In this document: piece after piece, positions 1,301-20,093 of the stretch
Layout of the letters: the number at the start of each line of letters is the position of its first letter
How positions within the stretch are numbered: the first letter of the stretch is position 1
Source: Bacteroidales bacterium
Lineage (GTDB): Bacteria > Bacteroidota > Bacteroidia > Bacteroidales > UBA12170
NCBI GenBank assembly: GCA_021158405.1
Contig: JAGGUP010000033.1
Coordinates: forward strand, 1-38,984
Length of the DNA stretch: 38,984 nucleotides
Reading direction: 5' to 3'
Program-made: the position numbers and the translations under genes
The notes under the pieces: generated by a model
Seen by the model: only the letters and a program-made list of their open reading frames with translations
Told to the model about the DNA's origin: nothing
Database searches by the model: none

Positions 1301-1324
1301 ATTTGAACAAACGTTTGTTCAAAT
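1301..1324. promoter_or_regulatory. Perfect 24-bp palindromic operator for the LacI-type regulator
   Basis: The half-site ATTTGAACAAAC (1301-1312) is followed at once by its exact reverse complement (1313-1324), giving a 24-bp palindrome centred on CG. LacI/GalR operators are palindromes with a central CG, and the cognate regulator gene lies next door. The right half contains the TTTG proposed as the -33 element of the susC promoter, so binding would block transcription directly. Confidence 0.85.
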
Positions 1325-1376: not shown

Positions 1377-4300
1377 ATGAATCAAAAGCGACAACAAAAC
1401 AGTATGTTAACAAAGATTTTCGCGAATTCAACAGGTAGAATTTTGCGCAAAACATTGAACTTAAAAGGTTCTTTGTTTATCTTAGTCTTTGTTGTTTTTA
1501 ATTACTTTGCTTATGGCCAACAAAATTTTACAGTTTCCGGTAAAGTTTCTAACGAGACCGGCCAATCACTACCCGGAGTGACAATTGTGATTAAAGGAAC
1601 TACACAAGGTACAGTTACAAATTCTGATGGGAGCTATCAATTGCAAAATGTTACTGATGGAACCGTTTTGAATTTCTCCTTTATTGGAATGGAATCACAA
1701 GAGATTACTTTTGATGGTAACACTACTATTAATGTAATATTAAAAGATGCTTTTATTGGACTTGATGAGGTGATAGCTATTGGATATGGTATTTCTAAAA
1801 AAAGTGATATCACAGGTGCTGTTAATTCTGTTAAAGGTGAGAAATTAGATCAAGTAAGTTCGCAAAACGCCCTTATATCTCTTCAAGGGAAGGTTCCAGG
1901 AGTTAATATTACCAGCAACTCAGGTGCTCCAGGAGAAGGTGTGAAGGTTCGGATTAGAGGTGTTGGAACAATAAATAACAGTGATCCAATTTATGTTGTT
2001 GATGGTTTTATTACAAACAACATAGACTACTTGGCTACAAATGATATTAAATCGATAGAAGTATTAAAGGATGCTTCTGCTACAGCCATCTATGGTTCTC
2101 GCGGAGCAAATGGAGTAATATTGGTTACGACCAATAAAGCAACCAGTAATCAATTGGCATTTAATGTTGATTATAATATGGGCTTTCAGTCTACCAATAA
2201 AACAATTGATATGCTTAATGCTTGGCAATTTGCAACTTTATACCGTGAAGCTCAGACAAATTCAGGAGTGACGCTCACACCCTATGAAGATAAAATAACA
2301 CAATTCGTTATCGACAACAAATCTGAAGGTACTAATTGGCAAAAAGAAATATTAAAAGAAAACACTCCAATTCAAAATTTGTACGCCACTGTAACGGGGG
2401 GTAGTGATAAGAATAAATTTCTTTTTTCAACTAGCTACAATAGCACTGACGGCCTTGTGAAGTACAACGATTATACACGGTTGATCTTAAGATTGAACAA
2501 CAGCTACTACATAACTGATAAAATCACATGGGATATGGATGTTAATTATAGCACTTCAGACAATCATAGGGTTAACAATGGCATATTTACATCCATGCTT
2601 TACATGGATCCAATAGCCGTAGCTTGGGACAAAAACACAAATAATTATGGTGCTAAGACCTTTAATAATATCGAAGCTTCAAATCCTGCCTTAACGGTAG
2701 ATTATTCGAAAAATAATGGTTTGGCTAAATCAAACAGAATAATTGGAAGCTCAGCTCTACACGTTAAAGAGTTGTTTGTCAAAGAATTGTTTTTTGACGT
2801 GAATTTTGGTTATGATAGGAGCACTGTAAACGGGAAAGGTTTCTGGCCTGAGTATTTTGTAAGTACAAATAACTATAATACTGAAAGTAGTTTGTATCAA
2901 AACGAGCGCACAAATGTTTCGTATTTGTTATCAGGATATTTTACTTATAGAAAAGAGGTGGGAGCGCATAATTTTAAAGCCATGCTTGGTAGTGAATTCC
3001 AGAAGTTTGAGAACAGCTGGAATTTTGCTCAAGCATTCGATATTCCCAATGATCCCAACCAAATGTATTTTGATTTAGCTGGCAATCCGGAAAGAAAAAA
3101 CTTAGGTGGAAATTTTAATGAGTCCGCCTTGTTATCTTATTTTTCCAGAATTAATTATAGTCTTTTGGACCGCTATTATTTTACTGCTACTCTACGGGCC
3201 GACGGAAGCTCAAAGTTTATAGATAAAAATAGATGGGGATTATTTCCTTCAGCAGCATTAGCATGGAATGTTAAAAATGAAACCTTTTTACAAGATGTTG
3301 ATATCATTAGTGGGATGAAACTAAATGCCGGCTGGGGAATGGTGGGTAACCAAAACTCTCTGAATAATCCATATGCTTATGCCGCTACCATTTCCACAGA
3401 AAGCAACTCTTATGTGTTTAGCGATAATGTAGTTAATGGATATTATCCTGACAATCTAGCCAATAAGGAAATAAAGTGGGAAACTACAGAAACATTTAAT
3501 GTTGGCCTTGACCTCTATTTGTTAGATAATAGGATGAACTTTCAATTTAATGCGTATAAAAATACGACAAGAGACATGATTGCTACTCCATCGGTTCCAA
3601 TGTATGTAGGCTATGGAGCAGTACCTGCCAACATTGGTTCAATGGAAAACAAAGGACTTGAATTTCTTCTTGGATACAAACAAACCATAAACGACTTTAA
3701 CTTTAGAGTAGATCTTAATGTTGCTAAATTCAAAAACAAAGTTATAAGTTTAGGGACATCAACACCTATATGGAATGGATTTGTTGCCCGTCTTGACCCC
3801 ACAACACACACAGAGACAGGTGGTGAAATTGGCGCCTTCTACGGCTTAAAAACCAATGGTATTTTTACACAAGAAACACTTGATCAGTTACATGCAGAGT
3901 ATCCTCAATATCAGCCGACTGCAAAGCCGGGAGATGTTTATTTTGTCGACTTTGATGGTGACCATAAAATTGACAAATCTACTGACAGACAAGATCTGGG
4001 GAGTGCTATTCCTGATTTTACAGGAGGCATCAATCTCAATGCTACGTGGAGGGGCTTAGATTTTTCTTGTTTCTTATTAGGTTCGTATGGCAATAAAATA
4101 GTAAATGGGCAATACGTATATATCAAAGGGTCAAACATAAAAAGCAACTGGCATGCTGACATGTGGAACCGTTCTACCCCTGGAAATATAACTGATATAC
4201 CTCGACTTGATATAGCTGACGTTAATGGAAATACAAGTACTTTCTCCGACAGGTTTATTGAAGATGGCAGCTATTTAAGGCTAAAAACAATACAATTAGG

Positions 4301-4505
4301 ATACACTTTTCCTCTATATTTAACCAAAAAAGTAAATATAAATAAACTAAGAATTTACTTTTCAGGAGAAAATCTATTTACAATAACAAAATATTCTGGA
4401 TGGGATCCTGAGCCCGTATCTTACGGCACATTAAGCGGAGGTGTAGATTATGGTACATATCCTCTATCGAAAATATTTTCATGTGGAGTTAATTTAATAT
4501 TTTAA
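1377..4505 (+). CDS. SusC/RagA-family TonB-dependent outer-membrane transporter
   Basis: This is the outer-membrane import channel that works with the SusD-like lipoprotein encoded next. After a signal segment (hydrophobic about residues 31-45, cleavage near AYG-QQ) there is a carboxypeptidase-D regulatory-like domain (about 51-124). The SusC-type stretch LDEVIAIGYG (129-138) follows, then the plug domain (about 143-255, with QGKVPGVNIT and PIYVVDGF) and a large beta-barrel to the C-terminus. The length of 1042 aa is typical. It starts the operon and is followed 13 bp later by susD. A second in-frame Met at residue 10 would also leave a workable signal peptide. The substrate cannot be read from the protein. 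The downstream ribokinase, NH-like enzymes and sugar permease point to a riboside, nucleoside or ribose-bearing oligomer. Confidence 0.96.
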   Translation: MNQKRQQNSMLTKIFANSTGRILRKTLNLKGSLFILVFVVFNYFAYGQQNFTVSGKVSNETGQSLPGVTIVIKGTTQGTVTNSDGSYQLQNVTDGTVLNFSFIGMESQEITFDGNTTINVILKDAFIGLDEVIAIGYGISKKSDITGAVNSVKGEKLDQVSSQNALISLQGKVPGVNITSNSGAPGEGVKVRIRGVGTINNSDPIYVVDGFITNNIDYLATNDIKSIEVLKDASATAIYGSRGANGVILVTTNKATSNQLAFNVDYNMGFQSTNKTIDMLNAWQFATLYREAQTNSGVTLTPYEDKITQFVIDNKSEGTNWQKEILKENTPIQNLYATVTGGSDKNKFLFSTSYNSTDGLVKYNDYTRLILRLNNSYYITDKITWDMDVNYSTSDNHRVNNGIFTSMLYMDPIAVAWDKNTNNYGAKTFNNIEASNPALTVDYSKNNGLAKSNRIIGSSALHVKELFVKELFFDVNFGYDRSTVNGKGFWPEYFVSTNNYNTESSLYQNERTNVSYLLSGYFTYRKEVGAHNFKAMLGSEFQKFENSWNFAQAFDIPNDPNQMYFDLAGNPERKNLGGNFNESALLSYFSRINYSLLDRYYFTATLRADGSSKFIDKNRWGLFPSAALAWNVKNETFLQDVDIISGMKLNAGWGMVGNQNSLNNPYAYAATISTESNSYVFSDNVVNGYYPDNLANKEIKWETTETFNVGLDLYLLDNRMNFQFNAYKNTTRDMIATPSVPMYVGYGAVPANIGSMENKGLEFLLGYKQTINDFNFRVDLNVAKFKNKVISLGTSTPIWNGFVARLDPTTHTETGGEIGAFYGLKTNGIFTQETLDQLHAEYPQYQPTAKPGDVYFVDFDGDHKIDKSTDRQDLGSAIPDFTGGINLNATWRGLDFSCFLLGSYGNKIVNGQYVYIKGSNIKSNWHADMWNRSTPGNITDIPRLDIADVNGNTSTFSDRFIEDGSYLRLKTIQLGYTFPLYLTKKVNINKLRIYFSGENLFTITKYSGWDPEPVSYGTLSGGVDYGTYPLSKIFSCGVNLIF

Positions 4506-4518: not shown

Positions 4519-6228
4519 ATGAAAAAATTTATAAACATACCAGTATTAATAGTTGGCATAATCGCATTGCTAACCTATTCGTGTACCGATCGATTGGATA
4601 TCGAACCAAGCTCTCTGCGAACCGGTGAAAATTTTGTTACTAGTGATGAAAATGCAATTATGGCAGTTAATGCTATTTACAATGAAATGGCCAAAAGTCA
4701 CCGTTGGGGAAATGGTCAATTGGAAAGCAATTATTTCGAAATTGGTGAAATGCTTGCCGATTTTTCTGAAATGGGATCCGTTAAAGGTGATTATGATGAT
4801 TTAGAGCGAATGATAGAATGGCGTCCATTTACCGATGAAATTATACTTAATGGGATTTGGAAACGGTGTTACAGAGGTATTTACAAAGCCAATTATGTAT
4901 TGACGAACCTACCTGAAGCGCCTATAAATGAATTGCTTAAGAAAAGACTTATGGCAGAAGCTCTATTTTTGAGGGGGAATTTCTTTTTGCGTTTGGTGAA
5001 AGTCTTCGGAAGTGTACCACTCCCTACCGATATCATTTATCCTGCTGATTATGGAAATGCAGTACAAGAAACTGTTCATGATGGTTATATGTTGGCTGCC
5101 AACGATTTTAGAAATGCAATATCCAATCTTCCAGAAAAAAGCGAATATGCCGTTGAGGACATGGGACGAGCTACCAAAGGAGCAGCTCAAGCTATGCTGG
5201 CACGCTTATATTTATTACAGGTTGGTATGGATAAGGAGGCAAATGAATCCTTATGGGATTCTGTATACAGTTATACCAATACTGTAATTACTTCTGGTGA
5301 ATATGATTTAGCATCTAATTATGCGAGTATATTTGAACCAGAAGGGGAAAATAATGTTGAATCGATATTTGAAGTTCAATATGGAGAATCTGCTTCATTA
5401 AATCAGGGGATTGGTGCAAGCAACTCTGCAATTGGAAATACTTTTCAAATCAGGTGCGGCATCAGGGGAGCTGATAACGAAGGCCTTCCTGGTGGTTGGG
5501 GCTATTTTCAACCCTCACAATTGCTCGTTGATGAATTTGAAGATGGGGATCCACGGTTAAGTTCAAGCGTCTATGGACCAAATTACAACGGTGGCATTGT
5601 TTATGGTATTCCACGAAATTTCGATCTTAGCCAAATGCAATCAGAATATTACAATCGAAAGATTGCTATTGATCCAGTACTAGAAGCAGACGCCCTCAGT
5701 CTGGCGCCATCAAATGGAGCCAGGAATGTTAGAGTAATAAGGTATGCTGATGTATTGTTAATGCATGCCGAGGCATCTTATCATTTAGGGAAAACTGGAG
5801 AAGCACTAATGGACCTTGAAAAAGTTAGGGACCGTGCAAGAAACAGTACTTATTGCAAAGGTTATTCTAATGGAAGCACTGGTTATGTGCCAACAGGGAA
5901 TTCGAATACATTACCGATAGTTAATGCGTCTGGAACTGATTTACTTGAGGCGATATGGCATGAAAGAGCAGTAGAGTTGTCCTTGGAAAGTCAACGTTAT
6001 TGGGATTTGGTACGTACTGGTCGGTACTTGGATCGTTTGGATGTGAAAAAGGCTAGTTCAAAAGACCCATTAGCTACCGAATTAAGGTTTGCAAATATGG
6101 ATATCCGAGCTAATTGCCAAGCTCGATGTATTGAAGGCCCTAGAGGAATAAAGGATATTCCAGTATTTCCTTTACCGGGAGTCGAAGCTATCCAATGGAA
6201 CTTAACACAGTTAATCGATGTATACTAA
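4519..6228 (+). CDS. SusD/RagB-family nutrient-binding outer-membrane lipoprotein
   Basis: This surface lipoprotein lids the SusC channel and captures substrate. The signal peptide ends in LLTYSC, with Cys22 as the lipidation site. The rest is SusD-like: an N-terminal RagB/SusD region with helical TPR-like segments (for example around KRLMAEALFLRGNFFLRLV and GRATKGAAQAMLARLYLL) and a C-terminal part with the family-typical IRYADVLLMHAEASYHLGK and ERAVELSLESQRYWDLVRTG motifs. The length of 569 aa is normal. It lies 13 bp after susC and 11 bp before the next lipoprotein, so co-transcription is likely. Ligand specificity is inferred only from neighbouring genes. Confidence 0.95.
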   Translation: MKKFINIPVLIVGIIALLTYSCTDRLDIEPSSLRTGENFVTSDENAIMAVNAIYNEMAKSHRWGNGQLESNYFEIGEMLADFSEMGSVKGDYDDLERMIEWRPFTDEIILNGIWKRCYRGIYKANYVLTNLPEAPINELLKKRLMAEALFLRGNFFLRLVKVFGSVPLPTDIIYPADYGNAVQETVHDGYMLAANDFRNAISNLPEKSEYAVEDMGRATKGAAQAMLARLYLLQVGMDKEANESLWDSVYSYTNTVITSGEYDLASNYASIFEPEGENNVESIFEVQYGESASLNQGIGASNSAIGNTFQIRCGIRGADNEGLPGGWGYFQPSQLLVDEFEDGDPRLSSSVYGPNYNGGIVYGIPRNFDLSQMQSEYYNRKIAIDPVLEADALSLAPSNGARNVRVIRYADVLLMHAEASYHLGKTGEALMDLEKVRDRARNSTYCKGYSNGSTGYVPTGNSNTLPIVNASGTDLLEAIWHERAVELSLESQRYWDLVRTGRYLDRLDVKKASSKDPLATELRFANMDIRANCQARCIEGPRGIKDIPVFPLPGVEAIQWNLTQLIDVY

Positions 6229-6239
6229 AAATTAATATC

Positions 6240-7835
6240 ATGAAAAATACGATTTATCTCATATTAACAGTTATAATTTCGCTTCTAGTAACAAGTTGCG
6301 ACAAAGAAAGGGAATGGTCAGAGGATTATGACATTCATCTACCAGTACCAGAAGTTACTTCTGCCTCTGCAACAAGAGTTAGTATAAATGACACAATTAT
6401 TGTTCAGGGGGTATTTAACTATATAACCAATGTAACCATTGGTGGGGGTAATGCCCAAATCAAGTCAATTTCTAGCGATAGTACAGAAATGGTTATTAAG
6501 GTTTTGGCCACTTGTAACTCAGGTTATTTAATTGTTGAAAACGTCTATAAGAAAAAAAGCCCCGAAGTAGTAAATATTATTGTTGAAGGTGGTGGTGAGA
6601 TTGAAATACCAGATGAAGTTGTAATAATTGATTTTGCAACAAAAGGAGCCTTACCCTCATGGACAGCCTCAACCTGGTCAGAAGTACGTACTGCTGAATC
6701 TGGTTATGACTTAAATGACAATATTCTTCCTCCTGAGGGCTATGAACATTATTATGCCTTGAACGACATCAATTGGGATCAAGCTGGCGGTGGAAATGCA
6801 CCCTATGGTTACTTTAATACCGATAATAATGGAGCTGGCTTCGATATTCAGTATTATAGCAGCCCTTATGTGTCAGTATTGATAAACACAGGCGATTATG
6901 TAGCTTATTTGAGTTACTCTGCTACAGCAGGTAATCAAATAGATTTTAATCCAGGACAAGCGCCAGGTGGAAACTTTGCTAATATGGAATCTGGAATGTT
7001 TTTGGAAACCCATGGAAAGTGGATGTGGTACTCTTTCAAACTTAGTGATGTGTTAGGTACTGAAGCACCAAAAAAACTTGAAAGTTCAGGATTGTTAATT
7101 AGAAACCCATGGGCAGGACCGGATCCTTATCCTGGTTTCCAAATAAACATTGCTAAAATGGTTGTCACTGAAGGACCTATTCAAAAACCATTGATTACCA
7201 TATTCGATTTTTCAACTGGTAATGATGCAGATATTCCTCAATGGACTCCCAATGATTGGGTAGAAGTTCAGACTTTTGAAGAGCAAGGATTTGATTTAAA
7301 TGTAGGTGCCGGTGTTTCTATACCAGGTGGGTATAGTCATTATTATTCCCTGAATGATCATTCAGTAAATAAGAACGTTGGCGGTGAAGATGTAATTAAT
7401 CCAGCTGGGGGCGGAAACGTACCTTACGGCTTCTTCACAACAACTAATGGAGGTGAAGGGTTTAGTGATGCTATTAAAGACTATGACAACCTGTATTTCA
7501 ACTATCTTATTAATACCGGAAGTTCTGTGGCCTATGCAGATTACGCTAAAGTTAATGATGATGGAACTATCGAGGGATGGGCAGATTTAAATCCTAGTCA
7601 GACAGCAAATGATGTAATGGCCAATGGTGAGGGTAATTTTAATAAGACTGATGGTAAATGGATGTGGTACTCATTCTCTGTTGCCAAGATTTATGGTGGT
7701 GTAGAAAATATTCCTGAAAATTTCAATGCAGTTGGAATGTTTATGCGAAATCCTTGGGCAGGACCAGATCCTTATCCAGGTTTTGAACTAAATATAGCTA
7801 AGGTGGTCTTTTCAAATGGTCCACTTCAAAACTAA
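6240..7835 (+). CDS. Surface lipoprotein with a tandemly duplicated domain, probable substrate-binding protein
   Basis: The position directly after susCD and the lipoprotein signal (LVTSC, Cys20 from the chosen start) fit a surface glycan-binding protein. An N-terminal segment (about residues 30-125) looks like an IPT/TIG-type immunoglobulin fold. Two homologous domains of about 180-210 residues follow. Each opens with a DFxTxxxxPxWTxxxWxEV-like pattern, contains GGGNxPYGxF, and closes with GKWMWYSF then RNPWAGPDPYPGF. The ATG at 6240 is preferred over an upstream in-frame ATG at 6195, because 6195 overlaps susD and would bury the signal peptide. No catalytic motif is evident. The conserved aromatic residues are compatible with sugar or base stacking, but that is inference. 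Confidence 0.8.
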   Translation: MKNTIYLILTVIISLLVTSCDKEREWSEDYDIHLPVPEVTSASATRVSINDTIIVQGVFNYITNVTIGGGNAQIKSISSDSTEMVIKVLATCNSGYLIVENVYKKKSPEVVNIIVEGGGEIEIPDEVVIIDFATKGALPSWTASTWSEVRTAESGYDLNDNILPPEGYEHYYALNDINWDQAGGGNAPYGYFNTDNNGAGFDIQYYSSPYVSVLINTGDYVAYLSYSATAGNQIDFNPGQAPGGNFANMESGMFLETHGKWMWYSFKLSDVLGTEAPKKLESSGLLIRNPWAGPDPYPGFQINIAKMVVTEGPIQKPLITIFDFSTGNDADIPQWTPNDWVEVQTFEEQGFDLNVGAGVSIPGGYSHYYSLNDHSVNKNVGGEDVINPAGGGNVPYGFFTTTNGGEGFSDAIKDYDNLYFNYLINTGSSVAYADYAKVNDDGTIEGWADLNPSQTANDVMANGEGNFNKTDGKWMWYSFSVAKIYGGVENIPENFNAVGMFMRNPWAGPDPYPGFELNIAKVVFSNGPLQN

Positions 7836-7958: not shown

Positions 7959-8921
7959 ATGAAAAAATCCATTATAAAAATATATCCATTTCTGATCTTA
8001 CTTTTCATCATTGCATTTGTGAATGCATGTAAAGATGATGGTGATGTTACTCCTGTTAAACCGGTTGTTGAAAATATAGCAAAAAAAATAATCTTTGAAA
8101 CCGATATGTGCTTTGATGTAGACGACGTGGGTGCATTGGCTATGTTACATTACTACGAAAAAAAAGGAAAGGCTGAAATATTAGCTGTATGTTTTAACGA
8201 GGTTCACAATAGTGGGGCTGCAGCCATTGATGCAATTAATACCTCGTATGGCCGTGGTGATATTCCCATTGGGATTTATAAAAAGCCACTTGACGGACCC
8301 GATAATTCAAGATATCTGGCCTATATTGCTAATAAATATCCCCACGATATTCCGGACAACAGAAGTGAAATTCCAAGTGCATTGGATGTATATCACGAAA
8401 CACTTTTGGCACAACCCGATACTTCGGTTACCATAATAAGCCTTGGCTTTCTTAATAATTTAGCAGATTTATTAAAACAGTATCCAGCACTTGTGGAATC
8501 AAAAGTGAAGGAACTGGTTATCATGGGTGGAATAAATAACGATGATTTCAATTTTGTCAGACACAATCTTGTTCTAGATTCGGAATATGTATTAAAAAAC
8601 TGGCCTTCGCAAATTGTGATTTCACAAGAAGGATATGATATTTATACAGGAGAGTCCTTAGAATCTGCACCGGATAGTCCGGTTCGTGATGCTTATTATA
8701 AATGGTTCAATAATAGCTTTGAGGGCAGGAGTAGTTGGGATCAGATTGCAACTTTATACGGTGTTATTGGAGAAGATTTTTTCGATCTAAGCGCCAGTGG
8801 TACTGGTTCATTATCCAACGGTTATACTTATCCAATGGTAGACGGAAAGCGGATGACTAATCACCTTATTATATCGCATAGAGATGCCGCAGTGCTTATT
8901 GAGCAGATGATGAAAGAATAG
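7959..8921 (+). CDS. Nucleoside-hydrolase-like lipoprotein (NH paralogue A)
   Basis: This belongs to the inosine/uridine nucleoside hydrolase superfamily, whose members cleave the N-glycosidic bond of ribonucleosides to ribose and base using a Ca2+-binding Asp cluster. The protein is a lipoprotein (Cys24 in FVNAC) and so acts outside the cytoplasm. The N-terminal metal motif is the variant ETDMCFDVDDVGAL (47-60), with two more residues between the first Asp and the Asp pair than classical DxDPGxDD enzymes. A later RHN (201-203) may replace the classical EFN ribose-contact motif. An Asp (261, in SSWDQ) sits where the last Ca2+ ligand is expected. At 320 aa it is of normal size. It is the first gene after the hairpin and lies 25 bp before paralogue B. 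The exact substrate is unknown. Confidence 0.85.
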   Translation: MKKSIIKIYPFLILLFIIAFVNACKDDGDVTPVKPVVENIAKKIIFETDMCFDVDDVGALAMLHYYEKKGKAEILAVCFNEVHNSGAAAIDAINTSYGRGDIPIGIYKKPLDGPDNSRYLAYIANKYPHDIPDNRSEIPSALDVYHETLLAQPDTSVTIISLGFLNNLADLLKQYPALVESKVKELVIMGGINNDDFNFVRHNLVLDSEYVLKNWPSQIVISQEGYDIYTGESLESAPDSPVRDAYYKWFNNSFEGRSSWDQIATLYGVIGEDFFDLSASGTGSLSNGYTYPMVDGKRMTNHLIISHRDAAVLIEQMMKE

Positions 8922-8946: not shown

Positions 8947-10887
8947 ATGAAAAGTTACTTATGCAATAAAACATTGTTGCTTTTTTCATTGCTGCTATTT
9001 CTATGGACGCTTTCAGCCTCAGGTCAGAAAACAATTGAAGAGCAAAGTGAAAATGGAGTAAGGATTTGGATAGAAGCTGAAAATGGAAAGATAAATCCGC
9101 CAATGAAAATATGGGATGACAATGCTGCATCTTCCGGTTGTTTTATTGAGGTGGAAAGTGGTAACGGAAGCGAAGAAGAAGCTCCAAACAACGGACATGC
9201 AATTTATAAATTTGAGGTTTTAGAAACAGGGTTGTATAAAATTTGGGGACGAGTAATTGCCTCCATGGACGATGAGGATGCCTTTTGGGTAAAAGTGGAT
9301 AATGATGATTGGATTATGTGGAGAGATATTTCCATCTCTTGTCGGTGGCATTGGGATGAAGTACACGATAATACAAACAATAATAACCCGGTAACATTTA
9401 AGCTCGAAAAAGGAGAGCATACTTTTACTGTTGCTTATTTGCTTGATCAAACCCGTTTAGATAAAATTCTAATTACAAATGATATTGATTTTATCCCTTC
9501 AATGGAAGGACCAGAGGTGAAATCACAATTTGTATTTAGCCCGGATAAAAGCATTGCAAAAAAAGAATTACTTTTTGATGCATCAAAGAGCTTCAGCACC
9601 GAAGGAAAAATTGTGAGTTATAGCTGGAGTATTAGTGATGGGGACAAAAGCAACGAAAAAGCGTTTAAATATTCATTTGAAAAACCGGGAAAATATACTA
9701 TTAAACTTATAGTTAAAGATGAAAAAGGTACTATAGGAAAATCAAAACAGACCGTATTAGTATATCAGGATGAGCCTGTTATAAAATTACAAGCAACACC
9801 CGATCATATTAAAAGTGGTATGAAAGTAGAATTTGATGCTTCCGGTTCATTCGATCCAAATGGAGCTATTAAAACTTACAAGTGGAATTTTGGAGATGGA
9901 TGCCAAGGGGAAGGAGCAAAAACTCAGCACAAGTATTATACACAAGGTGAATACAACGCTATATTGACAGTAACAGACGAATCGGGGAAAGTTAAAACTA
10001 AAAAGAAGTTAATAACGGTAATAGCTGATAAACCAAAGAAAGTAATTTTCGAAACTGATATGTGCCTTGATGTAGATGACGTTGGTGCACTTGCATTACT
10101 GCATGCTCTTGCTGATAATAATGAAGCAGAAATTTTAGCGGTATGTTATAACGAAGCACATCATTATGCCGCATCTGCCATCGATGCCATAAACACCTGG
10201 TACGGCAGAGGGAAAATCCCAATTGGAATTTTCAAAGGTGAATTTGACGCTCCTGATTATTCGCAATATCTTGAAACTATTTCAAACTACCCCAATGATA
10301 TTAAAGAGAATGAAGTTCCTGAAGCAATTGAAGTATACAGGAATGCACTGAAAAACCAGCCGGATAAATCGGTTACCATTATAAGTGTTGGTTTTTTGAA
10401 TAACCTTAGTAAACTTTTGCGTGAAGAACCTGAGTTGATTGCAGCAAAGGTAAAGGAGTTGGTTTTAATGGGTGGTGTTTCTAATGATGGATTTAACTTT
10501 TCGCGTCACAACCTCAATGTAGAGTCAGAATATATTTTTAAAAACTGGCCAACACCTCTAGTTATAAGTCAGCAGGGTGGTAATATTATAACAGGTATCC
10601 CATTACAAAATGCACCTAATGAAAATCCTGTTAGGGCAGCTTATTTTCAATTTTTTCACAATTGTTACTGTGACCGTCCAAGTTGGGATCCGTTAACTGT
10701 GTTGTATGCTGTACGTGGTACTTCTGATTATTTTAAAATGATAGATAAAGGAACTGGTCGGCTAAGTAATGGCTATTCTTATAAGATGAAACAAAATTGG
10801 CGTAGCTATTTAGAAACGGTACTTCCCAATTCGGATTATGAAGATATTATAAACAGACTTATGCTAAAGCCGCCAAAAAACAATTAA
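8947..10887 (+). CDS. Exported CBM-like/PKD/PKD/nucleoside-hydrolase fusion (NH paralogue B)
   Basis: A signal peptide (about residues 1-26, ending in SASG-Q) is followed by a beta-sandwich resembling carbohydrate-binding modules of the CBM6/35 or malectin type (about 37-180, IWIEAENG at the start, FTVAYLLDQTRLDKILI near the end). Two PKD domains follow (about 190-273 and 277-360, the second with YKWNFGDG), then an NH-like catalytic domain (about 364-640) with ETDMCLDVDDVGAL, FSRHN and an SWD near the C-terminus. The 646 aa are about twice the usual NH length. CBM and PKD domains normally hold enzymes on polymers, so this form suggests a surface or secreted enzyme that removes ribose from something large. 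The domain calls are by eye; the catalytic domain is clearly paralogous to gene A. Confidence 0.85.
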   Translation: MKSYLCNKTLLLFSLLLFLWTLSASGQKTIEEQSENGVRIWIEAENGKINPPMKIWDDNAASSGCFIEVESGNGSEEEAPNNGHAIYKFEVLETGLYKIWGRVIASMDDEDAFWVKVDNDDWIMWRDISISCRWHWDEVHDNTNNNNPVTFKLEKGEHTFTVAYLLDQTRLDKILITNDIDFIPSMEGPEVKSQFVFSPDKSIAKKELLFDASKSFSTEGKIVSYSWSISDGDKSNEKAFKYSFEKPGKYTIKLIVKDEKGTIGKSKQTVLVYQDEPVIKLQATPDHIKSGMKVEFDASGSFDPNGAIKTYKWNFGDGCQGEGAKTQHKYYTQGEYNAILTVTDESGKVKTKKKLITVIADKPKKVIFETDMCLDVDDVGALALLHALADNNEAEILAVCYNEAHHYAASAIDAINTWYGRGKIPIGIFKGEFDAPDYSQYLETISNYPNDIKENEVPEAIEVYRNALKNQPDKSVTIISVGFLNNLSKLLREEPELIAAKVKELVLMGGVSNDGFNFSRHNLNVESEYIFKNWPTPLVISQQGGNIITGIPLQNAPNENPVRAAYFQFFHNCYCDRPSWDPLTVLYAVRGTSDYFKMIDKGTGRLSNGYSYKMKQNWRSYLETVLPNSDYEDIINRLMLKPPKNN

Positions 10888-10900
10888 TAAAACAAATATT

Positions 10901-11896
10901 ATGAAAAACCTACTTTTGGTTTGTTTGTTGATTTTTATACTTAGTAGCTGTATAAAAACAGAAAAGCGAATTCCAATAATTTTTGATACCGATACAAACA
11001 ACGAATTGGACGATCAGCATGCATTGGCTTATTTGCTCTTTAATGCTGATGTTTTTGACACAAAAGCAATTACAGTAAATGCAACAAGCAATGGAGGCGA
11101 TATTGATAAGCAATATGCAGAAGCTCAACGTATTATGCAATTGTGTAAAGCAAATGGCAAGGTGCCTTTGTTAAAAGGTGCGGATAAAAGTTTCAATGAA
11201 ATAAAAGATTCTATAAACCATGTAGTTTTTGATGGGGTTTCGGCGGTTGATTTTATTATCAAAGAAGCGTTAAACTATTCATCAGAAAACAAATTAGTTG
11301 TTGTGGCCGTAGGAAAACTCACCAATATTGCACTTGCTGTGGAAAAAGAACCACGAATTACAGATAAAATTAGGTTGGTATGGTTGGGTGCCAACTACCC
11401 CGACACTGGAGAATATAACCTGGTAAACGATATCCCTTCCATGAACTTCCTGCTTGATACCAACATCGAATTTGAAATGGTTACTGTTCGGTATGGCAAA
11501 GATTCAGGCACAGACCATGTCAAGGTTTTCAAAAAAAATGTTCTTGATAAAAAAATCATGAAAGGTTTAGGACCTAAAACAGATGTTCCTGTTATTGGCA
11601 GGCATGGAGGTGAATTCTATTGTTTCGGTGATTATTCACATAGCCTGTTTGAGCACTGTCAGTTTCATGGGGATAAGCAGTACCGTGCATTATTTGATAT
11701 GGCTGCCGTTGCGATTGTTAAAAATCCTGAGTGGGCAAAAACCACAATTATTCCTGCTCCCCTAATGGTTGACGAAAAATGGGTGGACCGTCCTGAAAAT
11801 AAACGAAAAATTATTCTTTGGGAATATTTCAATAGAGATGCAATCATAGAAGATCTTTTGGAAAGTTTGAGACATTATAGTTTGGTAAAAAGGTAA
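10901..11896 (+). CDS. Nucleoside-hydrolase-family lipoprotein closer to the classical type (NH paralogue C)
   Basis: The lipoprotein signal (ILSSC, Cys17) places it in the periplasm or on a membrane. The metal motif is IIFDTDTNNELDDQHALAY, and the protein keeps AVGKLTNIALAV, close to the GPLTNIALAL motif of classical nucleoside hydrolases. EYNLVNDIPS matches the position of the ribose-binding EFNxxxDP motif, and a late ALFDMAAVA supplies the final Asp. It is therefore the locus member most likely to be a true nucleoside hydrolase (331 aa, normal length). It is 13 bp after paralogue B and 22 bp before the ADP-ribosylglycohydrolase-like gene. An NH sits near the ribokinase in the B. thetaiotaomicron ribose-scavenging locus, which supports a ribose-releasing role. 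Confidence 0.88.
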   Translation: MKNLLLVCLLIFILSSCIKTEKRIPIIFDTDTNNELDDQHALAYLLFNADVFDTKAITVNATSNGGDIDKQYAEAQRIMQLCKANGKVPLLKGADKSFNEIKDSINHVVFDGVSAVDFIIKEALNYSSENKLVVVAVGKLTNIALAVEKEPRITDKIRLVWLGANYPDTGEYNLVNDIPSMNFLLDTNIEFEMVTVRYGKDSGTDHVKVFKKNVLDKKIMKGLGPKTDVPVIGRHGGEFYCFGDYSHSLFEHCQFHGDKQYRALFDMAAVAIVKNPEWAKTTIIPAPLMVDEKWVDRPENKRKIILWEYFNRDAIIEDLLESLRHYSLVKR

Positions 11897-11918
11897 TGTA
11901 ATGGTAAATATCTTTAAT

Positions 11919-13490
11919 ATGGAAACAAGAATGATAAAGTATATCCTGCCTGCATTGATTGCAATGACAATTTCATGTTCCAGGCAGACTCCAGAAAAGG
12001 AGCAGTTTTCGGACTCAACCACAGTGGCTATCAGTAAATCTGAACTTCAGGATAAAATCAAAGGCGGCTGGGCCGGACAGGTAATTGGTTGTACCTATGG
12101 TGGCCCAACTGAGTTTAGATGGAAAGGTACTCTAATTGGTGACCATGTGCCCATTCAGTGGGATGATTCCCGTATGTTTTGGTATTTTAAAAATGCACCG
12201 GGTTTATATGACGATTTGTATATGGATTTAACCTTTGTGGATGTATTTGAAAAGTACGGACTAGATGCACCCGATTCACTTCATGCACTGGCCTTTGCAA
12301 ATGCTGATTATCTCTTGTGGCATGCCAATCAGGCTGCCCGATATAATATCCTTAACGGGATTATGCCACCCGCTTCCGGTTACTGGAAAAACAATCCTCA
12401 CTCCGATGATATCGATTTTCAGATTGAGGCAGACTTCGCTGGATTAATGTCGCCGGGTATGGTTAACTCAGCAACTGATATAGGCTGGAGAATTGGCCAT
12501 ATCATGAATTACGGTGATGGAGTTTACGGCGGAATTTATGTGTCAGCTATGTATTCACTGGCTTTTGTCTACAATGATATTGACTTTATCGTAAACGAAG
12601 CTCTGACAACAATACCCCCTGAAAGTGAATTTCACCAATGCATTACCGATGTCATTCAATGGCACAAACAATTTCCCAACGACTGGAAAAGAACCTGGTT
12701 TGAAGTTCAAAAGAAATGGACTTACGTAAAAGGCTGTCCCGACGGAGTATTTACTCCCTTTAATATTGATGCCAAAGTAAATGCTGCTTATATGGTAATT
12801 GGCTTGCTTTATGGTAATGGTGATTATGGTGCAACGATTGATATCAGTACCCGTTGTGGTAACGATTCTGACTGCAATCCGGCAAGCACAGGCGGAATTT
12901 TGGGGACGATGATCGGGTATAGCAAAATTCCTGATTATTGGAAACAGGGAATCGACAAAGTGGTGGATATGAATTTTAGCTATACGGATATGTCACTTCA
13001 AAAATTATATAAAACCGGCTTCCGTCATGCCGTTGAAATGATTAAGCGAAACGGAGGAAAGGAAGAAAGCGATAAGGTGATAATTCAATACCAGAAACCT
13101 AAAAACGTACCGCTTGAAATTGCTTTCAACGGAATATTCCCTAAAGAGCGAAAGAAGATTGGCGGGAAGCTGACTTCAAACAAACCTGAAATTTCGTTTG
13201 ATATGAAGGGTTGCGGTTTTTTAATAACAGGATGGGCTGCTAAAGAAAATCAGTTGCCCGATATAACACTGAAAGTGGATGTTTTTGTGGATGGACAATT
13301 TCAGGAAACAGTTAAAATGCCCACTCAGTTCAGGACTCGTCGTCTCGATGTGACCAGGAATTACGATTTACCTGAAAGAGCACATACTGTTACTCTGAAA
13401 GCACTGTATATTCCCAAAGGTTATTGGATTGAAACAAATGATGCGCTATTGTATTCATCCAACAAACCAGAATCTCACATTCATTTTTAA
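11919..13490 (+). CDS. Exported ADP-ribosylglycohydrolase-family lipoprotein
   Basis: The catalytic core shows the ADP-ribosylglycohydrolase (DraG/ARH-like) pattern: KIKGGWAGQVIGCTYGG near the N-terminus, an acidic YDDLYMDLTFVDV where the family has a metal-binding DDT-type motif, and CGNDSDCNPASTGGILG near the C-terminal side of the core, equivalent to GGDSDTNA. The family removes ADP-ribose or ribose-linked groups with the help of two metal ions. An extra domain of about 130 residues with beta-rich composition follows the core. A lipoprotein signal (AMTISC) means it is exported, unlike most family members. The start is ambiguous: ATGs at 11901, 11919 and 11931 are in frame, and the last gives the tidiest signal peptide. 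An equivalent gene is present in the B. thetaiotaomicron rus locus. Whether its substrate is ADP-ribose, NAD or another riboside cannot be told. Confidence 0.85.
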   Translation: METRMIKYILPALIAMTISCSRQTPEKEQFSDSTTVAISKSELQDKIKGGWAGQVIGCTYGGPTEFRWKGTLIGDHVPIQWDDSRMFWYFKNAPGLYDDLYMDLTFVDVFEKYGLDAPDSLHALAFANADYLLWHANQAARYNILNGIMPPASGYWKNNPHSDDIDFQIEADFAGLMSPGMVNSATDIGWRIGHIMNYGDGVYGGIYVSAMYSLAFVYNDIDFIVNEALTTIPPESEFHQCITDVIQWHKQFPNDWKRTWFEVQKKWTYVKGCPDGVFTPFNIDAKVNAAYMVIGLLYGNGDYGATIDISTRCGNDSDCNPASTGGILGTMIGYSKIPDYWKQGIDKVVDMNFSYTDMSLQKLYKTGFRHAVEMIKRNGGKEESDKVIIQYQKPKNVPLEIAFNGIFPKERKKIGGKLTSNKPEISFDMKGCGFLITGWAAKENQLPDITLKVDVFVDGQFQETVKMPTQFRTRRLDVTRNYDLPERAHTVTLKALYIPKGYWIETNDALLYSSNKPESHIHF

Positions 13491-13519: not shown

Positions 13520-14446
13520 ATGAGTAAAATATTAGTCATCGGGAGTTCAAATACCGACTTAATAGCAAAAGTGAAGAATTTTCCTAACTCAGGAGAAACC
13601 ATTGAAGGAATTGCATACATGCAAGCTATGGGAGGTAAAGGGGCCAATCAGGCAATTGCGGCTCACCGGTTAGGAGGAGGAGTAAGGTTTATCACCTGCC
13701 TGGGGAATGATGTCAATGGGAAAAATACGCTGCAATATTATCAAAATGAAGGGCTAGATGTTTCTTCTTCTTTAATTGTTGAGGAAATTTCATCGGGAAC
13801 CGCAATGATTTGGGTTGATGAAAAAGGCGAGAACTGTATTGTAATTACGCCGGGAGCAAATAACAAGTTGACGCCTGAATATATTTTGAAAATCGAAGAA
13901 AATATTGCCAACGCTGAAATTATTATGCTTCAGATGGAAATTCCTTATGAAACCGTTAAAACAGTTTGTTATTTGGCTAAAAAGCACAATAAGAAAGTCA
14001 TTCTGAATGTTGCCCCTGCAAGGGTATTAGATGAAGACATATTAAAAAATGTTGATATCCTGGTGGTGAATAAAACCGAAGCTGAAACTATTTCAGGGGA
14101 AAAGATTGAAGAGGTTGGAAAGATGACTGTGATTGAAAAGCTAATTTCCCTAGGAGTTTCAACTATTGTTCTTACCCTTGGAAAAGAGGGATGTTTGTTA
14201 AAAAATGAACAAACTGTAATAAATAAACAAGCTTTTGTCGTTGATACGATTGACACCACTGCCGCAGGCGATACTTTTTGTGGCGCCTTGGCTGCACGCC
14301 TTAGCAAAGGGGAAAATTGGGACGATGTACTAACATTTGCTTCAGCAGCTTCAGCTCTTTGTGTTACACGGATGGGAGCACAACCTTCCGTGCCAACTGA
14401 AAAAGAAGTGCTCGATTTTTTGAAGGAAAATGAAGTCAATTTTTAA
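13520..14446 (+). CDS. rbsK: Ribokinase (PfkB family)
   Basis: It phosphorylates ribose at C5 with ATP in the cytoplasm, feeding the pentose phosphate pathway. The N-terminal signature includes MGGKGANQAIAAHRLGG (37-53) and a substrate-binding ITCLGND. The C-terminal PfkB signature DTTAAGDTFCGALAARL has the catalytic-base Asp at about residue 251, and NKTEAE (185-190) is the usual ATP-site motif. The length of 308 aa is typical and there is no signal peptide. It is the strongest single clue that the locus handles ribose. It lies 29 bp after the glycohydrolase gene and 46 bp before a permease gene, so the three probably share a transcript. Confidence 0.93.
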   Translation: MSKILVIGSSNTDLIAKVKNFPNSGETIEGIAYMQAMGGKGANQAIAAHRLGGGVRFITCLGNDVNGKNTLQYYQNEGLDVSSSLIVEEISSGTAMIWVDEKGENCIVITPGANNKLTPEYILKIEENIANAEIIMLQMEIPYETVKTVCYLAKKHNKKVILNVAPARVLDEDILKNVDILVVNKTEAETISGEKIEEVGKMTVIEKLISLGVSTIVLTLGKEGCLLKNEQTVINKQAFVVDTIDTTAAGDTFCGALAARLSKGENWDDVLTFASAASALCVTRMGAQPSVPTEKEVLDFLKENEVNF

Positions 14447-14492: not shown

Positions 14493-15494
14493 ATGTTTAT
14501 CATAAATAGTTACTCGTTGGCAATTATATTTTGTGTAATTACTATGCTTTGTTGGGGTTCGTGGGGAAACACCCAAAAATTGGCAGGAAAAACCTGGCGC
14601 TACGAATTGTTCTATTGGGACTATGTTCTTGGAGTCCTGATATTATCGCTTATATCAGCTTTTACCATTGGAAGTATAGGCGATGGCGGTCGTGGCTTTC
14701 TTAATGACCTAGCACAAGCAGATTTGAAAAACATTGGAAGTGCTTTTCTGGGTGGTGTTATTTTTAATGCAGCCAATATATTGCTGTCTACAGCAATAGC
14801 CATTGCAGGTATGGCGGTAGCTTTCCCTGTAGGCATTGGACTTGCTCTAGTTTTGGGTGTAATTATCAATTACATGGGCTCACAAAAGGGTGATCCTGTA
14901 TTTTTATTCTTTGGAGTTACACTTATTGCCGTAGCCATTATTCTGAATGCGATAGCTTATAAAAAAACATCCGGTGGCAATCAAAAAGTATCTTCAAAAG
15001 GAATATTTGTTTCAATACTTGCCGGTGTACTGATGTCGTTCTTTTACCGATTTGTTGCCGCATCCATGGACCTCGATAATTTTGTAAGTCCGGCTGCTGG
15101 TAAAATGACTCCATACACAGCAGTGGTAATTTTTGCTCTGGGAATTTTTATTAGTAATTTTTTGTTCAATACCATTTTAATGAAAAAACCAATTAGTGGT
15201 GAACCTACTAATTACAAGGCCTATTTTAGTGGAAATTTGAAAATACATATGGTGGGTGTTTTGGGTGGTATAATTTGGGGAATTGGTAATTCACTAAATC
15301 TAATTGCCGCAGGAAAAGCTGGTGCAGCCATTTCATATGGTCTTGGACAGGGCGCAACACTTGTTGCGGCACTATGGGGTGTATTTATCTGGAAAGAGTT
15401 TAGAGGCTCTTCGAGGAGTACAAATTCTTTGCTTGCAATTATGTTTATATTGTTTGTTGCAGGAATTATCTCGATTATTTATGCTGGTCAATAG
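14493..15494 (+). CDS. GRP/RhaT-like sugar permease, probable ribose importer
   Basis: This inner-membrane protein has about ten hydrophobic helices in two similar halves, as in the drug/metabolite-transporter-type sugar permeases (GRP family, which includes GlcU and RbsU, and RhaT). The N-terminus has the recognisable LCWGSWGNTQK in the first helix; a second-half GGIIWGIGNSLN and GLGQGATLVAALWGVFIWKEF fit the family. It has 333 aa. Directly following ribokinase, it is best read as the ribose uptake step, equivalent in position to the permease of the B. thetaiotaomicron ribose locus. A role for another pentose or a nucleoside remains possible. Confidence 0.88.
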   Translation: MFIINSYSLAIIFCVITMLCWGSWGNTQKLAGKTWRYELFYWDYVLGVLILSLISAFTIGSIGDGGRGFLNDLAQADLKNIGSAFLGGVIFNAANILLSTAIAIAGMAVAFPVGIGLALVLGVIINYMGSQKGDPVFLFFGVTLIAVAIILNAIAYKKTSGGNQKVSSKGIFVSILAGVLMSFFYRFVAASMDLDNFVSPAAGKMTPYTAVVIFALGIFISNFLFNTILMKKPISGEPTNYKAYFSGNLKIHMVGVLGGIIWGIGNSLNLIAAGKAGAAISYGLGQGATLVAALWGVFIWKEFRGSSRSTNSLLAIMFILFVAGIISIIYAGQ

Positions 15495-15646
15495 TAGTTC
15501 TGTTAATTAAATATTTGCTGGGAATTGTGTTTCAATATTAGTCATTTTATTGAAAATAATAGCAATTGGGGAACAACTTTAATAAAGTGAGGTATACGAA
15601 AAGACATACATCTTAGGGTTATTTATAACGAAAAAAATTGAAAAGA

Positions 15647-16591
15647 ATGGAAATCAGCAAAACTTTTTCTAAATGGAAATATTTGTTTCTTTTAATTGTC
15701 CTGCTGCCAACTCTATTGATTGCCCGGAATAATAAACCGGTTAAACTAATTTACGAAACAGACATGTGTGGGGCGGTGGATGATGTGGGTGCTTTGGCTA
15801 TGATTCACGGACTTCAGAACAGAGGGGAAACAGAACTACTGGCGGTATGTTTAAACGCAACAGGGGATTCTGATGGCGTAGCTGCTATTGATGCTATCAA
15901 CACATGGTATGGGCGTGGAGATATTCCCGTTGGAATCTGGAAGGGATCTTATCCGGAGCCGGACCCATCTAAATATCTGCATGCCCTAGCTAGGTTTCCT
16001 CACAACATTAATAATAAAACTGCCTTAAGTGCTCTGGAGATTTATCAAAAAGTTCTAAGAAAACAACCAGACAAATCTGTGACTATTGTAAGCACGGGTT
16101 TTCTTCAAAACCTAGATGAGTTATTGAGAAATGATCCGGAGCTGGTTGCCTCAAAAGTAAAAGAACTGGTAATCATGGGCGCCTACCAAAATGACGTTAT
16201 CCATTTTAATAGGCACAGTACAACAAAAGCAGCCCAAAATGTCATAGAAAACTGGCCAACTTCGATTGTTTTTCATCATCTGGGTGGTGGGGTCCAGACC
16301 GGTTCAGGATTAAAGGATACGCCTGCAGGGAACCCAGTGCGGATGGCTTACTACTTGCAACTCGACTCCAAATTCACTGACAACCCTAGCTATGATCAGA
16401 TGACAGTCCTTTATGGCGTGAGGGGAGCTTCGGGTTACTTTAAGCAAAACACCACCGGTACAGGAATGTTATTGAATGGATATAAATGGGATCTGAAGAA
16501 AAGAAATGATTCGTGGTTGGAATTGACTTTAACGGAAGCTTCTTATGCCAAGATTATCCAAGATCTTATGGTGGAGCTCCCTCTGAAGTAG
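15647..16591 (+). CDS. Exported nucleoside-hydrolase-like protein with altered motifs (NH paralogue D)
   Basis: A signal peptide (hydrophobic LFLLIVLLPTLLI, cleaved near ARN) leads into an NH-like domain of about 290 residues. Compared with paralogues A, B and E, two conserved spots differ: the metal loop reads ETDMCGAVDDVGAL where the others have xDVDD, and RHS replaces RHN at the likely ribose-contact site. The final Asp (SYDQMTVLYGVRG) and the Asp pair are kept. It may have a different substrate or be a binding protein rather than an enzyme. An ATG at 15647 is chosen; an in-frame TTG lies 9 bp upstream. A 152-bp gap separates it from the permease, so it may have its own promoter, though none is convincing. 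Confidence 0.83.
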   Translation: MEISKTFSKWKYLFLLIVLLPTLLIARNNKPVKLIYETDMCGAVDDVGALAMIHGLQNRGETELLAVCLNATGDSDGVAAIDAINTWYGRGDIPVGIWKGSYPEPDPSKYLHALARFPHNINNKTALSALEIYQKVLRKQPDKSVTIVSTGFLQNLDELLRNDPELVASKVKELVIMGAYQNDVIHFNRHSTTKAAQNVIENWPTSIVFHHLGGGVQTGSGLKDTPAGNPVRMAYYLQLDSKFTDNPSYDQMTVLYGVRGASGYFKQNTTGTGMLLNGYKWDLKKRNDSWLELTLTEASYAKIIQDLMVELPLK

Positions 16592-16735: not shown

Positions 16736-18052
16736 ATGAGAAGATTAATTTTTTTTACGATAGTAATTTATCTTATATCACCGGGGTGCGCAAATACGGG
16801 TCAGAAAAGCAAGACTAACCAATATTATATAAATAGTCAAGACGGTAATGACTCCAATAAAGTGAATTCTATAAAATCACCGTGGAAGAGTCTCAAGAAA
16901 TTAGAGGAGATAACTTTTCATCCCGGGGATAGTATTTTATTTGCAAAAAATTCGGCCTTTCATGGGGGGATTATGTTTAAATCTTCCGGAACTATTGAAC
17001 ATCCGATCGTGATAAGTAGTTATAGAGATGGGGCACTTCCCTCTTTTAGTAATCCCAGTCGAGATGAGGTAAATGGGAATGTATTTCAGGTAAGTGGCAG
17101 TTATCTTGTATTTGATCGTCTATCATTTTTGAAGTGTGCGAACTCAAATTCCCAAAAGAGCAAATCAGTTTTGGAAGTAGGGGCCATATTTACTCAAACC
17201 AATGCACACAATATTATCATTAAAAACTGCGAATTCACTGATTGTCCAATAGGTGTTAATATTACAGGACAACACAGTTTGATAACCGGCAATTCATTTA
17301 AAGACTGCAATCGATTTCTTTCAAATCCAGACTGGGGACCGATAGGAATAGTTATAGGTAATGCTTATGATGAAATCTCACATAACTCTTGCTCAAACTA
17401 TGTAAACATTGGCGGAAATTATGGAGCAGATGGAGGTTTTATTGAATTAGATGACCGATTCTTTGGCGTTAAAGTTCATGATATTAAAATTCATCACAAT
17501 AAATCATTTGGAAATATGGGTTTCCTGGAAGTTGAGAAAGAGGTAGAAGGAGATAATATTGATGTGTATTATAACTTAAGCGACGACTATCAGCAATTCA
17601 TTTTCTATTGGGGTGGAGACAACTCTAAGATAGAAAACAATACGATTATCCGCTCAAAGCCATCGCTCAATGGAGCTGTCAATACAGTGTTTACTATGAG
17701 AAATGGAAATTTTACTTTAAGAAATAACATTTTTGTTGTGGCAAATGGCATACAGGTGTTGTTAACAGCTCCATACGATGAAGGGAATTACAATCATGTG
17801 ACGCACGAGAATAATCTTTATTACTGTACTGACGGAAGTACTGATGATCCTTGCGGAAGACCACTTGAAACAGGAGAATTAATTGCAAACCCTTGCTTTG
17901 TCGACACCAATGCAGGCAATTATCATTTAAGCCCCAACAGCCCAGCGATTAATAGCGGCAAGAATATAGGCTATGGCTTGGATTTAGATAATTTACCTAT
18001 TAAAAAAAATACAGCCCCAAATATAGGAGCCTACCTAAACAGTGAGAAATAA
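16736..18052 (+). CDS. Right-handed parallel beta-helix lipoprotein
   Basis: The signal peptide ends at Cys18 (ISPGC), so it is a lipoprotein. The N-terminal cap, with QDGNDSNKV, SPWKSLKKLEEI and PGDSILFAKNSAFHGG, is typical of right-handed beta-helix proteins. It is followed by repeated strand patterns such as NIIIKNCEFTDCPIGVNITG, SLITGNSFKDC, NSKIENNTIIRS and FTLRNNIFVV, and by a C-terminal DLDNLPIKKNTAPNIGAY found in many such proteins. This fold is common in polysaccharide lyases and glycoside hydrolases, but no catalytic residues can be assigned. Lying between two NH genes, it may cut or bind the polymer that carries the ribosyl groups. It has 438 aa. Confidence 0.75.
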   Translation: MRRLIFFTIVIYLISPGCANTGQKSKTNQYYINSQDGNDSNKVNSIKSPWKSLKKLEEITFHPGDSILFAKNSAFHGGIMFKSSGTIEHPIVISSYRDGALPSFSNPSRDEVNGNVFQVSGSYLVFDRLSFLKCANSNSQKSKSVLEVGAIFTQTNAHNIIIKNCEFTDCPIGVNITGQHSLITGNSFKDCNRFLSNPDWGPIGIVIGNAYDEISHNSCSNYVNIGGNYGADGGFIELDDRFFGVKVHDIKIHHNKSFGNMGFLEVEKEVEGDNIDVYYNLSDDYQQFIFYWGGDNSKIENNTIIRSKPSLNGAVNTVFTMRNGNFTLRNNIFVVANGIQVLLTAPYDEGNYNHVTHENNLYYCTDGSTDDPCGRPLETGELIANPCFVDTNAGNYHLSPNSPAINSGKNIGYGLDLDNLPIKKNTAPNIGAYLNSEK

Positions 18053-19852: not shown

Positions 19853-20093
19853 ATCATAAAAATTAATTTCAGATGCAAAACACCCGGATAATCAATATAT
19901 TAGTTAAGAAAGATTGATGCAGATCCATTTGGTATATCTGAGTCATTTTTCTATTGCTTAGGTCGGCAAAATTACAAAAAAGAAGAATGAACTTTTCTTA
20001 TTCTGAAAGGATGTTGATTTTAACAAACTTATAATGATTTTATTGGATTGTTTAACGGAATTGATTTCTTTTGCAGGAAATAAATATGAGTGT

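Follow-up and report, generated by a model that had tools for sequence, protein, structure and literature searches.

Among the described systems that resemble the one considered here, the ribose-scavenging (rus) locus of Bacteroides thetaiotaomicron was reported by Glowacki et al. in 2020 (doi 10.1016/j.chom.2019.11.009). Its gene order is presumably that of a Bacteroides faecis locus among our related loci (L186), which reads RbsK-RbsK-SusC-SusD type (by eye)-DUF4978-NH-RhaT, where NH stands for nucleoside hydrolase. The usual picture of exported NHs from ribose loci is that they act on soluble nucleosides. We have analyzed a stretch of 38,984 nucleotides (hereafter, the window) from a Bacteroidales bacterium (UBA12170; assembly GCA_021158405.1, contig JAGGUP010000033.1, positions 1 to 38,984), in which one NH, named NH2 here (8947..10887, + strand), carries a carbohydrate-binding module (CBM) and two PKD domains in front of its NH domain. 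Like rus, the window locus joins a ribokinase, SusC/SusD, an exported NH and a RhaT-like permease; with these components as the definition and with export judged by eye, it is classified here as a predicted rus-like ribose-scavenging locus. Unlike rus, it has five NHs, one of them with a CBM and PKDs, and further genes code for an ADP-ribosylglycohydrolase (ARH)-family protein, for a LacI-type regulator accompanied by a palindrome and for a beta-helix-type protein.

At the protein level, the pairing of a CBM with an NH-like domain, which the initial annotation of NH2 had pointed out, has a precedent in Sde_0182 of Saccharophagus degradans: according to its description (PMC8910321), CBMs, a beta-sandwich and an NH-like domain are joined in one protein, and this NH-like domain, by name in PF07632, is inactive on nucleosides. 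NH2 differs from Sde_0182 in matching PF01156, in keeping the metal ligands and in having one CBM and two PKDs. The combination of a CBM with an NH-like domain, rus-like loci and NH enzymes are already known; the CBM-PKD-PKD-PF01156 protein and its conservation between two organisms appear to be new, and no report on an NH with a PKD and a CBM was found in our literature search, outside which most subscription papers lay.

The open reading frame of NH2 starts with ATG and encodes 646 aa, its assignment being based on the frame and on profile matches. Residues 1-27 (8947..9027) look by eye like a signal peptide region, in which no lipobox was seen. A CBM35/CBM6-type beta-sandwich at residues 38-189 (9058..9513), delimited with a fold model and a homologue alignment, is followed by PKD domain 1 at about residues 198-272 (9538..9762; profile match 205-272, start by eye), PKD domain 2 at residues 275-354 (9769..10008; profile match) and the NH domain at residues 359-644 (10021..10878; profile match and fold model), all on the + strand. 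In the Pfam scan, which listed 10 families at E 0.01, the PKD part matched PF18911 (E 3.5e-39) in two stretches and PF00801 (E 8.4e-25), and residues 366-515 matched PF01156 with 49.4 bits (cut-off, 34.2). The PKD assignment is based on these profile matches, and the fold models are those of the CBM-like part (residues 24-189, aligned with 15 homologous domains; pLDDT 94.0, pTM 0.88) and of the NH part (residues 355-646; pLDDT 94.0, pTM 0.93). The fusion of an NH domain to a CBM6/35-like sandwich and two PKD domains, as proposed in the initial annotation, was thus confirmed by profile search and structure prediction, and the limits proposed there for the two N-terminal parts, residues 37-180 and 190-360, fit those found here.

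The same CBM-PKD-PKD-NH protein has been found in Cerina litoralis F89, a member of Flavobacteriaceae (L116:5218-7167), with 55% identity over 618 residues. An assembly chimera was rejected as the origin of NH2 because this orthologue has the identical four-domain architecture. The two proteins are identical at 95/152 positions of the CBM (62%) and 170/278 of the NH domain (61%), and at 28/83 (34%) and 38/85 (45%) of the PKDs; the CBM and the NH domain are therefore alike in conservation (Fisher p 0.84), and the CBM stands above the PKDs (66/168; Fisher p 3.5e-5). Conservation of the CBM at the level of the catalytic domain and above that of the PKDs supports a selected function for this arm. 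The Cerina stretch, which is 14.5 kb long and starts inside SusD, has the order SusD, surface protein, NH1, NH3, NH2, ARH, ribokinase, permease and NH5, and its products are identical to those of the window at 71% for SusD (410 residues), 72% for the surface protein, 87% for the permease, 60% for the ribokinase, 52% for ARH, and 58%, 57% and 77% for NH1, NH3 and NH5, respectively. It differs from the window locus in that NH3 precedes NH2 and in that NH4 and the beta-helix gene were not found in the 14.5-kb stretch. Because Cerina litoralis is, by its record, an isolate, ideas on NH2 become testable.

Beyond the window and Cerina, no further carrier of the full architecture was found in the samples searched. 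In the matches listed for 295 genomes of the order, 395 of the phylum and 395 of the class, samples that overlap one another, the full architecture occurred in the genome of the window only. Of ten other genomes belonging to the same genus, one gave a PKD match and none an NH-domain match at E 1e-20. A scan of genome contigs with the whole NH2 protein gave no relative; another scan of genome contigs, by permease alignment, in which the best 80 of 585 loci, from genomes with names, were kept, gave the CBM in 1 of these 80 loci. Among plasmids, 52 records match NH2 and none covers 80% of it; among phages, 12 match and again none covers 80%, with five listed matches hitting the PKD region. The absence of an NH match from the ten genus genomes, together with a permease 87% identical to a flavobacterial one, hints that the locus may have been transferred.

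The CBM-like model had as its top solved match 3zm8, a CBM35 that belongs to a GH26 mannanase from Podospora (Z 16.2, rmsd 2.1 over 126 residues). A Paenibacillus glucosyltransferase entry came next (Z 14.8), ahead of CBM35/CBM6 entries at Z of about 14 (4qb2, 14.2; 2cdp, 13.8). The top matches were mostly CBM35/CBM6 domains or enzymes bearing them, and some Cry-toxin chains, which share this kind of sandwich, matched as well, with Z up to 13.7. No Pfam CBM family was placed on the sandwich among the aforementioned 10 families, and the sole related Pfam match there was GH115_C with 18.9 bits, below its cut-off of 24.1; on the Cerina protein, the same family reached 25.2 bits, above the cut-off. 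Five Trp residues (W114, W122, W125, W134 and W136) are common to Cerina and to 9-15 of the 15 other domains. Judging from the model, the description of the sandwich as CBM6/35-like in fold appears right.

For the catalytic part, we compared 84 NH domains, including those of the window, Cerina and other genomes (matches at E 1e-10 with a domain of >230 residues, identical ones counted once and window NH3 excluded). The positions of the Ca-binding residues Asp371, Asp377, Asp378 and Asp581 of NH2 are Asp in 84/84 domains, and position 580, just before the last of them, is Trp in 74/84. The pair W580-D581 (10684..10689, + strand; from the alignment) is like that of NH group II, since PMC8910321 gives a Trp directly ahead of the last Ca-binding Asp as the arrangement in group II (purine-type); NH2 has this mark of group II (IAG) and does not have that of group I, a His at the same place. 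NH2 is also like the IAG nucleoside hydrolases in fold (Z about 25), and is unlike them in having a longer first-Asp spacing and no acid in the E-x-N motif. Its first Asp motif, ETDMCLDVDD, is two residues longer than the DxDxxxDD fingerprint and begins with Glu, as in 12/84 domains. The longer spacing was present in 49/49 rows of an earlier alignment (45 of 51 rows from other loci plus four window NHs, with L058, L060, L063, L103:10395, L040:10680, L042:627 and window NH3 left out), and it probably marks a subfamily.

In IU-NH, the ribose 5'-OH is bound by Glu166, which is the acid in the E-x-N motif. This acid (Glu/Asp) is kept in 76 of the 84 domains, and NH2 has Asn517 in its place. The eight domains without the acid are window NH1, NH2, NH4 and NH5, three Cerina NHs, and one L046 domain (L046:9381-10487) that lies outside the clade formed by the other seven. 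These seven share the pattern ND..[NH]-[FL]-x-R-H, which in NH2 is N513-D514...N517-F-S-R520-H521-N522 replacing E/D-x-N (10483..10512, + strand; family alignment), and Arg520 is present in exactly these 7/84 domains, from two genera. An alternative alignment (6ba0) puts Arg520 on the acid position, while the ungapped family alignment puts Asn517 there, in agreement with the helix start in the NH model; the acid is missing under either alignment. In a tree obtained by a short search with SH-aLRT support only, the seven form one clade with support 100, and the acid changed twice overall, having been lost once on the stem of this clade. Paralogues of the window and Cerina pair with each other (NH5 with support 100 and NH1 with support 80, the two NH2 proteins being nearest to each other without a resolved pair), showing that at least the duplication separating NH5 took place before the two loci split. 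Decay of the NH domain was rejected as the first choice, the altered motif being common to seven paralogues; the ribose pocket, altered and fixed across the clade, looks rebuilt rather than decayed, as far as sequences can tell. This Arg-for-acid NH clade was not found in the literature searched and appears to be new.

The explanation we place first, tentatively and with chances somewhat short of even, is that NH2 is an exported ribose-releasing hydrolase of the rus-like locus, which is held by its CBM on polysaccharide-rich matter and feeds ribose uptake. The NH domain would cleave the glycosidic bond of a riboside by the Ca2+-held ribose chemistry of NHs, the leaving group probably being purine-type and stacked on Trp580. 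The CBM35-type arm, spaced by the two PKDs, would hold the enzyme on cell wall, algal or plant detritus or matrix; ribosides would collect on such polysaccharide-rich material, and the arm need not bind ribose. Ribose or small ribosides would then enter via SusC/SusD and the RhaT-like permease and be phosphorylated by the ribokinase, with an RbsR-like repressor presumably controlling the locus. Computation shows the domains, the gene content of the locus, the kept metal ligands, the operator-like palindrome and the changed pocket; secretion, activity, substrate, binding to glycans, regulation and the flow of ribose are inferred. The conserved CBM-PKD-PKD-NH architecture, the other fusions described below and the clade-wide change of the pocket suggest a diversification towards surface-bound or unusual ribosides.

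Several points weigh against this explanation. NH2 may be located in the periplasm, where the presence of a CBM would be harder to explain, because neither a lipoprotein anchor nor a sorting tail was seen in it. Ordinary nucleosides may be poor substrates because the acid expected to bind the 5'-OH is missing. In the model comparison, the closest structure to the NH domain is that of XopQ with ADP-ribose, a protein described in PMC8910321 as inactive on common nucleosides. When 115 of the 117 neighbours without a label, from 41 related loci, were scanned, the 25 commonest of 119 neighbour families contained no nuclease or NUDIX family. The single genomic occurrence of the operator candidate described below is by itself weak evidence.

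The altered pocket also bears on a different substrate, namely a 5'-substituted ribose such as nucleotides, NAD+, ADP-ribose or ADP-ribosylated material, which we regard as unlikely and yet as the strongest competitor. The loss of the acid, together with Arg520-His521, would make space for a 5'-phosphate and supply charge for it; the ARH-family protein encoded two genes on would use the same pool. The loss of the otherwise well-kept acid in all seven clade members and the restriction of Arg520 to exactly these seven fit this idea. Among the 50 matches listed for the NH model, solved NH folds gave Z 22.6-28.1 over 258-272 residues, and the closest were effectors: XopQ with ADP-ribose (4p5f; Z 28.1, rmsd 2.7, 263 residues) and XOO4466 (27.6), followed by IAG-NH (25.5) and IU-NH (25.3). 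XopQ is reported, in PMC9963460, to hydrolyse 2',3'-cAMP. However, XopQ in another complex (7jlu) gave just Z 25.1, as ordinary NHs do, and this likeness may be common to the entire NH family or tied to one conformation, because the NH domain of NH2 was the single one modelled. The sequence favours ordinary IU-NHs, which are the best solved relatives of NH2 (profile E 3.7e-10); XopQ is absent from the 21 solved relatives listed by the sequence profile, the XopQ family model NF041355 gave 19.6 bits, far below its cut-off of 500, and, unlike the effector genes, the gene of NH2 lies in a scavenging locus. An ARH-family gene is present in the window locus and in 35 of the best 80 permease loci, which speaks for this substrate. 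The scanned genes of the window locus gave no match to a phosphatase or NUDIX family, which speaks against it. A wider proposal, possible though doubtful, is that the seven NHs form a new ribohydrolase clade whose 5' pocket has been rebuilt for 5'-linked ribose (as in ADP-ribose, NAD or ribosylated polymers), and that one member is active when tethered to a polysaccharide surface; this would be a substrate class not assigned to NHs.

The initial annotation had read the architecture as that of polymer-degrading enzymes and had concluded that the enzyme is anchored on a ribose-containing polymer or other large ligand. On that account, the CBM would bind a ribose-carrying polymer or large glycan and the NH domain would trim its ribofuranosyl groups. 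The CBM and PKD do adjoin the catalytic domain as in polymer-degrading enzymes, and the relatives of the CBM bear this out. Within the order, 5/290 other genomes have a match to the CBM at E 1e-8, and the proteins concerned are mostly of polysaccharide-enzyme type: one is a GH30-like enzyme, two are beta-helix (DUF1565) proteins, one is a SASA esterase and the last looks by eye like an alpha/beta hydrolase. In 2/5, a PKD adjoins the module. In the wider phylum, the closest relative (44% identical) lies inside an apparent M56/BlaR1-type membrane protein, and CBM-like modules of the family (up to 44% identical) stand at the end of two apparent proteins of this type (L101:6452-8884, - strand; L106:8219-10447, + strand), all judged by eye. 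The module is therefore a general arm that gives no specific pointer to ribose; since it is found on unrelated catalytic domains, its ligand in NH2 is, from the sequences compared, more likely a matrix glycan than the ribose substrate. Anchoring on a polymer thus stays plausible, also in view of the conservation of the CBM, while the ribose-containing polymer does not follow. Separately, a very long protein (L113:3-11315) was observed to have five copies of the NH2-type CBM-like module.

Related loci and the fusions of sister NHs support the explanation placed first above. Among the aforementioned 80 permease loci, at least 65 have a ribokinase, 35 an ARH, 28 a SusC and 27 an NH, with at least 10 having an NH with an ARH and 8 an NH, an ARH and a ribokinase, these counts being lower bounds because many stretches are short. 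In 44 loci around related NHs, at least 11 have the ribokinase, 10 the permease, 7 an ARH and 7 all three. Pfam scans of these relatives, one of which covered ten of 12 proteins (the L067 protein and the L036 ARH being left out), assigned sister NHs fused to LamG_3 (L045), an Apiosidase-like domain (L046), a heparinase-like domain below cut-off (L053), Sde182 with its C-terminal domain (L054), DUF3089 (L062) and BNR_2 (L188). The L046 protein (L046:10495-12792) joins the NH with the Apiosidase-like domain (PF13204) and collagen_bind_2, beside a second NH and SusC/SusD. In a Neomarinimicrobiota locus (L175:4601-9956), an NH-Big_7-LamG_3-sorting tail protein and an NH3-like protein occur together with a gene read in two frames, in which an NH is followed by a PKD with a weak 3-keto-disaccharide-hydrolase match; L054, L175 and L188 also bear the permease and ribokinase. 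The long ORF of L038 opens with an AMP-binding fragment, after which comes an apparent signal peptide of the NH itself, so that its start is probably over-long. The variety of these fusions indicates that NH domains have been joined recurrently to partner modules, which are often of glycan type.

In the aforementioned neighbour scan, the 25 commonest families included esterases (8), HAD-type hydrolases (3), GH97, sulfatases and GH109 (2 each), and purine-synthesis enzymes; HAD-type hydrolases can include nucleotidases. The neighbour families lean slightly towards glycans. These glycan-type families and the glycan-type partners of sister NHs, together with the beta-helix-type protein of the window locus, speak for a ribose polymer as substrate. 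Against it, the relatives give no sign of such a polymer, the chemistry of NHs is known from N-ribosides, and NH2 still has the leaving-group Trp; we therefore rate this substrate as rather improbable. That the NH domain of NH2 is a non-catalytic furanose-binding module, as proposed for Sde_0182, is less probable still: the joining of CBMs to an inactive NH-like domain in that protein (PMC8910321) and the lost E-x-N motif of NH2 agree with it, but NH2 retains its leaving-group Trp and all four metal Asp, it matches PF01156 while PF07632 does not appear in its list of 10 families at E 0.01, and a single loss of the acid on the clade stem with a uniform Arg-His in seven members is not scattered decay.

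The remaining genes of the window locus start with a LacI-family regulator (135..1151, - strand), for which RbsR is the nearest family model, although its 237 bits do not reach the cut-off (382). Between this gene and the divergent SusC gene lies a perfect 22-bp palindrome, TTTGAACAAACGTTTGTTCAAA (1302..1323), which is a candidate LacI-type operator. For an 18-mer of this palindrome with <=3 mismatches, 0.02 occurrences are expected in the window; at <=1 mismatch, the palindrome core has one site in the genome, as has a backward control pattern, and the 16-mer core is absent from the other 200 loci, including some with a similar LacI gene. The position and perfection of the palindrome count more than its rarity. 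All of the following genes are on the + strand. A SusC-like TonB-dependent receptor (1377..4505; profile match) and a SusD-like lipoprotein (4519..6228; profile match, lipobox by eye) precede a lipoprotein without a Pfam match (6195..7835), which is the surface protein compared with that of Cerina above and may be of surface glycan-binding type, a guess from its position and lipobox. Between the last gene and NH1, we observed a hairpin (7849-7886) of 16 pairs followed by a T-rich stretch, which could attenuate the enzyme genes relative to SusC/D; terminator-like sites in the window were not above shuffles (8 vs 11.8), and Rfam gave no match at gathering scores.

NH1 (7959..8921; PF01156, 43.4 bits; lipoprotein by eye, C-KDDG) lies just before NH2, and NH3 (10901..11896; 81.5 bits; lipoprotein by eye), a more distant NH, lies just after it. 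Then come the ARH-family protein (11901..13490; PF03747, 128.9 bits; lipoprotein by eye), a ribokinase (13520..14446; TIGR02152, 330 bits, above the equivalog cut-off of 299.65), a ureide-permease/RhaT-like transporter (14493..15494; PF07168, 90.8 bits, above cut-off; the RhaT model gave 51 bits against a cut-off of 319.6) and NH4 (15638..16591; PF01156, 48.8 bits). The beta-helix-type protein (16736..18052; DUF5123 below cut-off) has an N-terminus like those of lacto-N-biosidases and alginate lyases, and is followed by NH5 (18081..19031), with 22.4 bits for PF01156, below cut-off, and 311 bits with the family profile built here. The four PF01156 matches found in a search of the genome are all within the window locus, the weaker NH5 being missed by that search. 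Further downstream, two tandem DUF4491 genes (20034-20704) and two adjacent TauE/SafE-type genes, one of them below cut-off (22451-24029), were observed.

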